Shown piece after piece: positions 34,988 through 38,248 of a DNA stretch of 39,550 bases (positions within the stretch are counted from its first letter, which is position 1; each line of letters starts with the position of its first letter). Source of the stretch: Nanohaloarchaea archaeon B1-Br10_U2g1 (lineage in GTDB: Archaea > Nanohalarchaeota > Nanosalinia > Nanosalinales > Nanosalinaceae); NCBI GenBank assembly GCA_001563875.1, contig LKMN01000004.1:1-39550 (forward strand), given 5' to 3'. Made by a program: the position numbers and the translations under genes. A model generated the notes under the pieces. The model was not told the DNA's origin and ran no database searches. It saw only the letters and a program-made list of their open reading frames with translations.

Positions 34988-34998
34988 ACAAATATAAG
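34988..34998 (+). promoter_or_regulatory. TATA box deciding the start of the GHKL gene
   Basis: ACAAATATAAG is centred about 28 nt before ATG 35022, so that ATG is chosen over the in-frame ATG at 34998. Confidence 0.5.
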
Positions 34999-35021
34999 TG
35001 TTACTACATCATAGTAACATT

Positions 35022-35858
35022 ATGAGTGTGGGCCTTGAAAAAACAGTCGAGAAAGAACTATCCGGTACAAACCTACCAGATCCAGAAACAGTGATCGACC
35101 ATGAGTTCGGCAACCACTTACAACTGAAAATACCTTATACTGATTCTCCAGAAACAGATAATAGGGAGATATGGGAAGCGAGCCCTAGGTACGAATCTGA
35201 CTTCGAGAGCACCCATGTAATTGACTCTCTGAATGAGCTTAAAGGCAGAAATGAAGAAGGATTTGTCAACGAGAAATACGAAGAGTTTTCAGGGCCAGAA
35301 CAGCTTATAGAAGAGTTCACGAAAGATTCTAAAGCACCAGTCTACCCTAGAAGAGTTGCGTTTGAAGGTAAAAATGTCATAGAGAATTCTAGAAAGCTCA
35401 GTGAACCTCTTAGCACAGATGAAGAAACTTCTCTAGACTATATTCTATCAACGTTTGGACACGGCAAGGAAGAAATCTACAGCGATTTGGACATAACCGT
35501 AGATTGTCCTGAAGACGACTTCTACGTAAGAGGCGGATCAGAACTGTGGTTAGCAACACATACAATAAAGAAAAACTGGATAGACCATGGAGAGGGACTG
35601 GAAGACTATTCAGAACTTTTTGTGAATGTAGAGTCAGAAGAAGACTACGTGGAACTGGATATATATGACAACGGACCAGGACTAAACGGTTACAGCACAG
35701 AAGAAATATTTGAGTACGGGGAAGGAGAAAATACAGGGCTAGGTCTTGGAATGGTAAAAGAGCTAGTAGAACTCAACAACGGCTCAGTAGAATACTGCCC
35801 AGCAAACGCCGAGAAAAGAAACGGTATGGGCTATAAAATTAAACTAGAGAAGTCATGA
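35022..35858 (+). CDS. Orphan GHKL ATPase (histidine kinase-like)
   Basis: 278 residues. The C-terminal 130 residues are a HATPase domain: N-box-like THTIKKNWIDHG (second Asn kept), G1 DIYDNGPGLNG, G2 GEGENTGLGLGMVKELVELN. The N-terminal 150 residues are acidic and of unknown fold; I see no clear H-box with the phosphoacceptor His-Glu, no transmembrane segment and no sensor domain. No response regulator gene is nearby. It could be a serine-kinase-like regulator or a chaperone-type ATPase. Start ATG 35022 is supported by the TATA position. Confidence 0.8.
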   Translation: MSVGLEKTVEKELSGTNLPDPETVIDHEFGNHLQLKIPYTDSPETDNREIWEASPRYESDFESTHVIDSLNELKGRNEEGFVNEKYEEFSGPEQLIEEFTKDSKAPVYPRRVAFEGKNVIENSRKLSEPLSTDEETSLDYILSTFGHGKEEIYSDLDITVDCPEDDFYVRGGSELWLATHTIKKNWIDHGEGLEDYSELFVNVESEEDYVELDIYDNGPGLNGYSTEEIFEYGEGENTGLGLGMVKELVELNNGSVEYCPANAEKRNGMGYKIKLEKS

Positions 35859-36127: not shown

Positions 36128-37330
36128 TCACATCCCAACTGGTATGAAAGGTAGGTAGTAGAGTCCTAGCCCTATCAGAACCACTGATGCTAGTAGTGTT
36201 GTCCATGTAACTGCTTTGTCTGGCCCGTACCACAGATTTTTAGTGAGTACGGCAAACAGGAAGATTACTAGTTCTATCAGCATGTACATCATTAGGTAGA
36301 GCAGGATGTAAGAAGTGTATGCTGCTGTGCTGAGCGATACATCCGCTAGAACACCTGTAAACACTAATGGTAGTGCTACTGAACAAGGCAGCTCTACAAG
36401 AGTGATGCCTGCAGCGAAAAGTATTACAGCTCCGGCTATCGCCATAAAACCTGTTGAATCACTGTGTAATCTGTCCGATACCTTGTTCTGGAACTCGCTT
36501 ACGTACTTGTTTCCGGTGGTCTTACAGGTTGGACCGTGCTTATAGAAATCTAGGAACTTTTTGAAGAAGTAAAGTCCTCCTATTAATCCTGCGGCTCCGA
36601 TTAGGATGTTTAGTATGTTAAAGTATCCTACAAAGCTCTCTAATACGTTATACCAGATAAAGATTATGCTGCCGTAGACAGCTACTGTAGTGAAGATGAA
36701 TAGTCCTCCGTAAGTCAGGATTTTTCTTCTTGAATCGAATTTTATCACAATACCTAGGACTAAGAGCAATGCTCCTATACTGCAGACGTTCAACCCATCT
36801 ATGAATCCTAATAGGACTGCTAAACCTGTCAAAGAATAGTCGGCTAAATCAACCTCTCCTAGATACGGTATATAGGCTTTTTCGGACTCTTCTGAACTGT
36901 TTTCTTCACCTTCTGTCTCAGAAGGTTCACCGAGCTCTTTCTCAACAATTGATTCGATATCCTCTCCTACTGAGGGGTTGAAACCCAGAAACTTTTCGCC
37001 TTCAATAAACGTTAGAGGTGTGGCGATCCTACCAACTTCGACACTGTGCTGCTGCTCTAAATCTTCTATCTTATCGATAGTTCTCGGATCATTGATATCA
37101 TAAGACTCTATCACTAAACCAGGATAGTTCTCCTTCAACTCTTCGTGGAAAACCTCCTGGTCCGCACAGTATGGACATCCATCAGCGTATACATAATCTA
37201 TGGTTAAGCTATCATTACTCTGTTCGTATTCTAGATCTCCGGTTTCTCCATTCGCAGCTATTCCTGTAGAAAGTAGCAATGTCAAGATTAAGATTAATTT
37301 CAGGTTATTGATGTTTGGTATACTGTTCAT
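36128..37330 (-). CDS. Glutaredoxin-CcdA fusion membrane protein
   Basis: 400 residues. A signal-anchor (residues 10-26) leads to an extracytoplasmic thioredoxin/glutaredoxin-like domain with C52-P-Y-C55 (YADGCPYCADQEVF) and a cis-Pro block ATPLTFIEGEKFLGF. After an acidic linker (about 133-160) come six or seven transmembrane helices of the CcdA/DsbD type with the two conserved cysteines: FIDGLNVCSIGALL and LVELPCSVALPLVFTG. The protein should pass electrons from the cytoplasm across the membrane to its own outer thiol domain, supporting disulfide reduction outside. The gene next upstream on the strand is a membrane wHTH protein. Confidence 0.88.
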   Translation of the reverse strand: MNSIPNINNLKLILILTLLLSTGIAANGETGDLEYEQSNDSLTIDYVYADGCPYCADQEVFHEELKENYPGLVIESYDINDPRTIDKIEDLEQQHSVEVGRIATPLTFIEGEKFLGFNPSVGEDIESIVEKELGEPSETEGEENSSEESEKAYIPYLGEVDLADYSLTGLAVLLGFIDGLNVCSIGALLLVLGIVIKFDSRRKILTYGGLFIFTTVAVYGSIIFIWYNVLESFVGYFNILNILIGAAGLIGGLYFFKKFLDFYKHGPTCKTTGNKYVSEFQNKVSDRLHSDSTGFMAIAGAVILFAAGITLVELPCSVALPLVFTGVLADVSLSTAAYTSYILLYLMMYMLIELVIFLFAVLTKNLWYGPDKAVTWTTLLASVVLIGLGLYYLPFIPVGM

Positions 37331-37394
37331 ATCCTAGATTTCTGAGAAACGGTTTAAATATGCTCGTTTCAGAAGATGTAACAGCCCGGAAAAA

Positions 37395-37898
37395 CTACTT
37401 TTCAGCCATAATGTCTCTGAGGTCGCCGGCAACCTCTACCTTCTTTGACATACCATTCTCTTCCCTTTCGACTATTTTCCTTTTCTCCATCTTCTTCAGT
37501 GTTCTTGAAACCTTTACCTTACCGAGATCAGTACCTTCCACTATCTCCTTCTGTAAGCTTACTCCCTCTCTATCAATAAGGAAGTTGAGAATACTTCTCT
37601 GTTCCTCAGGCAGAAATCTGGTTGTCTTCAAAGCCTTCTCCCTAAGGTCTTCTTTCTCAGTCCTAAAAGATCCGCTTAAATAGTAGTAGATAGTAATACC
37701 TACAATCACTCCTGTTAAAGACATCCCTACCACTGTCAGAAGTAGCGAATCTCCGCAGTCACAGTAAGGTCCCGTCACAAGACTGTGAACTGTTAGAAAT
37801 CCTCCTGTTACAAGAATCATGAAGGCTGTGAGTATAGTTATAACACCTACCAGTCTCTTCCAGAATCCGTTGAGATCAAGGCTCACTCTTTCCTCCAT
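37395..37898 (-). CDS. Membrane-anchored winged-helix regulator with extracytoplasmic CxC
   Basis: 167 residues. Two transmembrane helices at about 13-37 and 51-75 precede a winged helix at about 95-160 (PEEQRSILNFLIDREGVSLQ, KVKVSRTLKKMEKRKIVERE). The short loop between the helices holds C46-D-C48 (GPYCDCGDS), which would face outside and could be a redox switch. It is 64 bp upstream of the Grx-CcdA gene and on the same strand. I infer a regulator of that gene that senses external thiol state. The order (membrane first, wHTH last) is opposite to the regulator at 12800. Confidence 0.8.
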   Translation of the reverse strand: MEERVSLDLNGFWKRLVGVITILTAFMILVTGGFLTVHSLVTGPYCDCGDSLLLTVVGMSLTGVIVGITIYYYLSGSFRTEKEDLREKALKTTRFLPEEQRSILNFLIDREGVSLQKEIVEGTDLGKVKVSRTLKKMEKRKIVEREENGMSKKVEVAGDLRDIMAEK

Positions 37899-37966: not shown

Positions 37967-38248
37967 CTATTCCGGATGCGCCATCACATCGAGACCGAGA
38001 TCTCCTTCTTCTAGAAGACCGGAAGCTATCAACGTATAATGTATACTTCCTTCTAACACTAATTCTTGTTCAAGCACTGTATCCTGCTCTCCATGGGCCC
38101 TGATCTCCACATGGTGAGATCCTATATCCAGTTCAACCAACTCTGTTGTTTCTCTAAACCCTACATTTTCAGAAACCGGTTCTCCGTCCACCATTATATC
38201 TACTGAAGGCGCATCCGGCGAAAAATGTCCTATCTGCAACATCGGCAT
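37967..38248 (-). CDS. Single-domain DUF4397 protein
   Basis: 93 residues, one DUF4397 beta-sandwich: IGHFSPDAPSVDIMVDGEPV (the HASPDAPxVDV hallmark), ENVGFRETTELVELDIGSHH, then VLEGSIHYTLIASG. Family members in haloarchaea and bacteria are usually secreted, often with two repeats. This one has no signal peptide and only one domain, so it may be cytoplasmic or exported by another route. 226 bp upstream are empty of genes apart from weak hairpins. Confidence 0.8.
   Translation of the reverse strand: MPMLQIGHFSPDAPSVDIMVDGEPVSENVGFRETTELVELDIGSHHVEIRAHGEQDTVLEQELVLEGSIHYTLIASGLLEEGDLGLDVMAHPE

Follow-up and report, generated by a model that had tools for sequence, protein, structure and literature searches.

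A membrane-anchored winged-helix protein, a TATA-straddling operator and a CcdA-type reductase: a probable transmembrane thiol circuit in small archaea

Two adjacent genes of a nanohaloarchaeon, together with the operator that lies between them, probably constitute a one-component redox feedback circuit that works across the membrane. The proposed parts are a membrane-anchored winged-helix regulator, a conserved operator and a thiol reductase of the CcdA type. The sequence gives the anatomy of both proteins, the retention of the regulator's cysteines, the linkage of the genes, the operator and its place at the CcdA promoter in cis and in trans. How archaea track redox outside their membrane is largely unknown, above all in the hard-to-culture DPANN lineages. 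The circuit is small and concrete (one protein, one operator of defined sequence, one target), and from sequence alone it allows binding sites and target genes to be predicted in dozens of genomes; the operator could also serve in reporter assays in a laboratory archaeon.

The window, the whole 39,550-nucleotide stretch that was analysed (Nanohaloarchaea archaeon B1-Br10_U2g1, contig LKMN01000004.1, positions 1 to 39,550), carries both genes on its minus strand. The preliminary description had placed the pair at 36128-37898, and both open reading frames are there, at 37898-37395 (167 aa) and 37330-36128 (400 aa), the regulator upstream of the reductase with a gap of 64 bp (Table 1). Hydropathy and Pfam agree that the first encodes a membrane winged-helix protein whose only cysteines, C46 and C48, lie between two helices. 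Its DNA-binding domain scores above the Pfam cut-offs for both DUF7343 (37.9 bits; cut-off 27.6) and MarR_2 (33.1 bits; cut-off 27), and in an alignment of the first seven homologues C46 and C48 are two of nine invariant columns. With these seven as input, AlphaFold returned a model (pLDDT 70.6) consisting of a helix at residues 5-45, a turn at the CxC, a helix at 48-93 and a winged helix (wHTH) at 98-156. The closest Foldseek matches in the PDB are the MarR-family repressors MepR, AbfR and MexR (E about 4e-4 to 5e-4), and OhrR is also among the matches; the alignments cover the wHTH part only. As there are two helices and the DNA-binding end is necessarily inside the cell, the CxC loop of about 17 residues should lie outside. 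The same helix parity is found in nearly all homologues examined.

Table 1. Positions of the features discussed. Entries without a locus name refer to the window.
Feature	Position	Strand	Basis
Thioredoxin-fold–CcdA fusion, 400 aa: signal-like segment, outer CPYC domain, CcdA-type membrane domain	36128..37330	-	ORF, hydropathy, family profile, PDB matches
C52-P-Y-C55 codons, active site of outer thioredoxin-fold domain	37166..37177	-	C52, P53, C55 invariant among 8 aligned proteins
C183 codon, first membrane cysteine (D-G-x-N-x-C motif)	36782..36784	-	D178, N181, C183 invariant among 8 aligned
C316 codon, second membrane cysteine (x-L-P-C motif)	36383..36385	-	invariant among 8 aligned
Candidate operator array GTTACA-N5-TGAAAC-N15-GTTTCT, in 64-bp gap before reductase	37345..37382	-	2 mismatches to consensus
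Half site 1, GTTACA	37377..37382	-	match to array consensus
Half site 2, TGAAAC	37366..37371	-	match to array consensus
TATA box ATATTTAAA, between half sites 2 and 3	37353..37361	-	A+T-rich core conserved, 26 aligned sites
Half site 3, GTTTCT, ends 14 nt before reductase ATG	37345..37350	-	match to array consensus
Membrane-anchored winged-helix regulator, 167 aa: 2 TM helices, C-terminal MarR/DUF7343 domain	37395..37898	-	ORF, hydropathy, Pfam, AlphaFold, homologues
Regulator TM1, residues 16-34	37797..37853	-	hydropathy maximum 2.29
Regulator C46-D47-C48 codons, CxC of outer loop	37755..37763	-	protein's only two Cys
Regulator TM2, residues 52-70	37689..37745	-	hydropathy maximum 2.28
Regulator winged-helix DNA-binding domain, residues 99-152	37443..37604	-	Pfam DUF7343 and MarR_2; Foldseek
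GcvH-like protein after CcdA	L108:4592-4975, L109:4603-4986, L127:7849-8247, L132:425-835, L225:2646-3044, L289:1354-1752		
CCG-domain / LutB-like proteins	L126:1423-2139, L244:4138-4893, L247:4214-4966, L261:2290-3084, L290:1926-3999, L287:1552-2748		

The reductase was previously described as a Grx-CcdA fusion with C52-P-Y-C55 and two membrane cysteines. That architecture holds, while 'Grx' is one label among several: the outer domain has a thioredoxin fold, and its profile matches thioredoxin 1fo5 best (E 7e-6), with glutaredoxin 3ic4 at E 2e-4. The N-terminus is signal-like by hydropathy. C52, C55, C183 and C316, of which the last two lie in separate membrane helices, are invariant in all eight aligned proteins, CPHC being the usual active-site motif of the family; a fifth cysteine, C269, was absent from the earlier account. 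Pfam DsbD_TM has no match anywhere in the window's genome, so the CcdA domain is recognised through relatives. The reductase itself matches neither DsbD_TM nor DsbD_2; among its eight relatives DsbD_2 is found in two and DsbD_TM in one. The AlphaFold model of the reductase (pLDDT 39) is too low in confidence for use on the CcdA fold.

Two further genes lie close by. A DUF4397 protein (4e-15) is encoded at 37967-38248 on the same strand, 68 bp upstream of the regulator; no counterpart was noticed beside the homologues. On the opposite strand, at 34998-35858, is a histidine-kinase-type ATPase (HATPase_c, 1.6e-8) with no other recognised domain.

A profile built from the first seven homologues was searched against 394 archaeal genomes and two phyla, and 80 neighbourhoods were examined. 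Full-length homologues, with two helices followed by a wHTH, occur in many archaeal families. Those relatives that have names belong to the Aenigmatarchaeota and other DPANN groups. A search with a sub-alignment of closer homologues gave six named loci; in three of these, from Aenigmatarchaeota (AUK155, AUK182 and Zod_Metabat.1300), a CcdA gene adjoins the regulator. With CcdA genes near a regulator marked by a CcdA profile, the two genes are neighbours at 21 loci, of DPANN type and from many archaeal families. The count includes one locus where a Trx-CcdA gene, judged by eye, is cut by the contig end (L134), one where CcdA lies two genes off (L112) and one found from the CcdA side (L225). Ten pairs are divergent, mostly with 35-69 bp between the genes, and 11 are co-directional; with two gene orders, the linkage is not merely one frozen block. 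That a short two-cysteine membrane protein just happens to adjoin CcdA in one genome is scarcely credible and was rejected, given that 21 loci are linked, in two arrangements, and that the operator stays with CcdA in trans (see below).

Does the linkage follow the cysteines? The regulators fall into classes with CxC, CxxxC, a wide pair (C-x4..7-C), one cysteine or none in the loop, and the 21 linked to CcdA comprise 17 CxC, 2 CxxxC and 2 single-cysteine proteins. The preliminary description had made its proposal depend on linkage to redox genes elsewhere, and such linkage recurs: CcdA lies beside 18 of 26 close-cysteine regulators, and of the 47 others 2 have it as a neighbour (Fisher p 4e-9, L225 left out). 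This p overstates independence, since the rows are not independent, the base of the tree is unresolved and an independent-pairs test of cysteine pair against linkage has two to three pairs only and no power. Both linked regulators outside the close-cysteine class have a single cysteine, and of the 20 that lack a loop cysteine not one is linked. The same division is seen within single genomes, where L130 is linked and L133, L175 and L182 are not (G279), L125 is linked and L187 (no cysteine) is not (G137), and L225 is linked and L145 (no cysteine) is not (G127).

Most sampled archaeal CcdA genes are without such a regulator. It adjoins one of 40 further CcdA loci (L225); this one was found regardless of its cysteines and has a CxC. 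Conversely, L191, one of the six named loci, holds a CxC regulator with no CcdA in reach. A genus mate (G001; L223, G001:C25:1-5000), whose assembly is 79% complete, has the same reductase and neither regulator nor operator, so the circuit is dispensable.

The second line of evidence is at the promoter. A half site, TGAAAC, first seen repeated in upstream regions, proved to be part of a conserved candidate operator, GTTTCA-N5-TGAAAC-N15-GTTTCA, whose half sites bracket the TATA box at the CcdA promoter. In both gene arrangements the array points the same way with respect to CcdA, whichever way the regulator faces, and N15 contains the TATA box. The window's array, mismatched at 2 of 18 positions, is the sole match with at most two mismatches in the 710-kb genome; its halves have shuffle p values of 0.01 and 0.005. 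Counted as TGAAAC-N15-GTTTCA with at most one mismatch and gaps of 12 to 18 allowed, the pattern is present in 16 of 21 linked CcdA promoters versus 2 of 39 other CcdA promoters, and the two exceptions come from genomes (G040 and G093) that have an unlinked CxC regulator. In co-directional pairs none of the nine promoters that belong to the regulator has it, and among promoters of regulators of other cysteine classes it is present at 1 of 47. Where regulator and CcdA nearly overlap in one operon (L163, L225), a similar palindrome stands before the regulator instead. A different palindrome upstream of the window's regulator, TGATTTAAATCA, was dropped; homologues do not share it.

A scan of 394 genomes allowing at most one mismatch found 23 operator sites in 21 genomes, compared with two sites for a reversed control pattern. 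Seventeen of these genomes have a site at a CcdA gene or at an operon that includes one; the G022 site comes directly after the regulator where the contig ends, the next gene missing, which makes 18 of 21 genomes with a site at CcdA or beside the regulator. Four sites fall in the coding sequence of unrelated genes. The search for binding sites called for by the preliminary description thus found a conserved candidate at the CcdA promoter even where regulator and reductase lie apart. They are 55 kb apart in G040 and on different contigs in G093, G272 and G106, and in each the site is at CcdA; G062 and G082 have a two-mismatch site about 17 bp before a LutB-like/CCG/CcdA operon in which CcdA comes last. 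None of these six trans sites was used in defining the motif. Could the half sites be mere promoter elements? They sit on either side of the TATA box, a place where one expects BRE-like sequence, and part of their conservation could reflect promoter function. This explanation is weakened in that 37 of 39 other CcdA promoters and 46 of 47 promoters of other regulators lack them, and by the reversed-pattern control. Linkage and operator together make it very probable that the regulator controls CcdA, and we infer that this protein, not another, binds the operator.

With the operator in view, the linked set grows to 29 regulators (23 CxC, 2 CxxxC, 4 with a single cysteine) that either adjoin CcdA or have an operator at CcdA. 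The conservation of the CxC, which had been put forward as decisive, takes a broader form: at least one loop cysteine is kept in 29 of 29. The four operator-linked single-cysteine regulators (G195, G155, G106 and G045) mean that CxC is not strictly needed and that an intramolecular C-x-C disulfide cannot be the sole chemistry. Two of them (L299 and L300, from G106 and G045) share the loop GILCxYVYxTPY, and the CcdA promoter or operon in their genomes has a near-perfect operator. Such versions point to an intersubunit bond or metal binding as alternatives.

In which direction would the regulator act? Repression is the likelier sign, and rather clearly so, to judge from archaeal promoter anatomy: half site 2 overlaps the place where BRE normally stands, and half site 3 falls between the TATA box and the start, so binding should block TBP/TFB. 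The regulator might instead be an activator that, reduced or oxidised, recruits TBP/TFB from the palindrome just upstream of TATA. Archaeal activators can act from a position upstream of BRE/TATA, and the 17-bp palindrome GTTTCA-N5-TGAAAC occupies that place in all aligned sites. The third half site, however, lies downstream of TATA and is conserved as well as the other two, which fits blocking better; we consider activation unlikely.

The presence of a loop cysteine in all 29 linked regulators, and a target that moves reducing power outwards, make thiol sensing the simplest reason for this retention, and we infer that the loop cysteines sense thiol state. In the circuit that we propose, two helices would anchor the regulator in the membrane, a short outer loop bearing the close cysteine pair, while inside the cell its winged helix would bind the three-half-site operator across the TATA box of the reductase gene. 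Excessive oxidation at the outer face would lead the loop cysteines to form a disulfide, within the CxC or between the subunits of a dimer; the winged helices would shift, the promoter would be freed and CcdA would be made. CcdA would then pass electrons outwards through its membrane and outer cysteines until the loop has returned to its reduced state and the gene is switched off.

The same regulator of CcdA could sense a metal if the two CxC loops of a dimer came together outside as a site of four cysteines, at which Cu+, Zn2+ or some comparable thiophilic metal would bind and change DNA binding. Bound metal would tolerate varied spacings, and single cysteines of two subunits could share a ligand site. 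A ZIP transporter is found near a CxC regulator in three loci by Pfam tally, and by eye there are CDF-like proteins in L111, L114 and L115 and a CopA-like ATPase in L112. The conserved operator, however, is at CcdA and not at metal-transport promoters, the ZIP genes lie downstream of CcdA in one related group only, and no outer histidine or methionine is conserved alongside the CxC. We think metal sensing improbable, a little more so than activation. Less probable again is that the loop cysteines are a substrate or structural pair kept reduced by CcdA, the regulator answering some other membrane signal. The outer domain of CcdA and the loop do share a compartment, and the cysteine spacing varies; yet all linked regulators keep a cysteine, whereas sisters of the same fold without cysteines, whether lost or never had, are unlinked.

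Paired Fe-S ATPases of MinD/NUBPL type account for 16 of 106 neighbours of CxC regulators, and among 102 control neighbours they do not appear in the top families; ZIP, GcvH-like and AhpD-like proteins are also abundant beside CxC regulators. The ATPase pairs, which have ferredoxin inserts, show strong enrichment there, as do Nitro_FeMo-Co small proteins (L111, L114, L118, L119, L127-L130, L137 and L163). Several loci encode, after CcdA, a GcvH-like protein with a lipoyl domain, frequently accompanied by an AhpD-like CxxC protein and in one or two cases by a lipoate ligase; a lipoylated protein might thus donate electrons to these CcdA proteins on the cytoplasmic side. Another possible electron source is found in CcdA operons of other lineages, which include iron-sulfur proteins of the CCG-domain (HdrB/LutA-like) and LutB-like types.

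A sister class with the same two-helix winged-helix build conserves a C-x5-7-C pair in its loop, frequently as CSHGxxCPMW, and does not adjoin CcdA (L143, L148, L149, L158, L164, L168, L172, L176, L181, L182 and L184). HMA, ArsP, TauE, FtrD-like or ferric-reductase genes are present in some control neighbourhoods. The sister class may sense something else, such as a metal. We tentatively suggest, at slightly less than even confidence, a widespread archaeal class of two-helix, short-loop winged-helix proteins that read outside chemistry through one or two loop cysteines and each directly control one promoter. The CcdA circuit, with its fixed TATA-straddling operator, would be a minimal transmembrane thiol thermostat, and the C-x5-C or cysteine-less sisters the same device tuned to other signals.

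The individual elements have known counterparts. The reductase resembles CcdA, DsbD and ScsB in its two membrane cysteines and outer thioredoxin-fold CxxC partner, and in the literature we found no description for these proteins of a dedicated transcriptional regulator reading outer thiol state. Within open-licence PMC, where absence is not proof, we found no paper on DPANN with CcdA among 5.39 million, none on DUF7343 and none joining these elements, in keeping with the preliminary description, which knew of no described example. This probable outside-redox thermostat of tiny archaea seems to be undescribed so far. With the MarR thiol switches OhrR, AbfR and MexR the regulator shares the winged-helix fold and, by our reading, would share a palindromic operator and cysteine-based control. 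Those proteins are soluble with cysteines inside the cell, whereas the regulator's cysteines should lie across the membrane from the DNA. ArnR and ArnR1 of Sulfolobus are, like the regulator, archaeal membrane-bound one-component proteins with two membrane helices (PMC6396743). Unlike it, ArnR begins with an HTH, has its HAMP-like and sensor domains inside the cell, and ends with two helices; the regulator's order, helix-helix-wHTH, is the reverse. ArnR acts on archaellum and pili genes, with no cysteine switch described.

The bacterial membrane-integrated transcription factors ToxR, TcpP and CadC have an N-terminal wHTH of the OmpR type. Like them, the regulator should have its DNA-binding domain inside and its cysteines outside. 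In CadC the disulfide C208-C272 of the outer domain changes activity (PMC3096576), the outer disulfide of ToxR depends on DsbA/DsbB (PMC3483227), and in TcpP outer cysteines steer the inner DNA-binding domain (PMC7017273). These three, however, cross the membrane with a single helix, have a folded outer domain and act on targets that are not related to thiol reductases, whereas the regulator has a C-terminal MarR/DUF7343-like wHTH, two helices, a loop of some 17 residues and, as its putative target, a thiol reductase. The steering of inner DNA-binding domains by outer cysteines is thus already known; build, family and target differ here. Next to ToxR and CadC, the archaeal circuit would be a second, independent kinase-free route by which an outer thiol signal reaches DNA.
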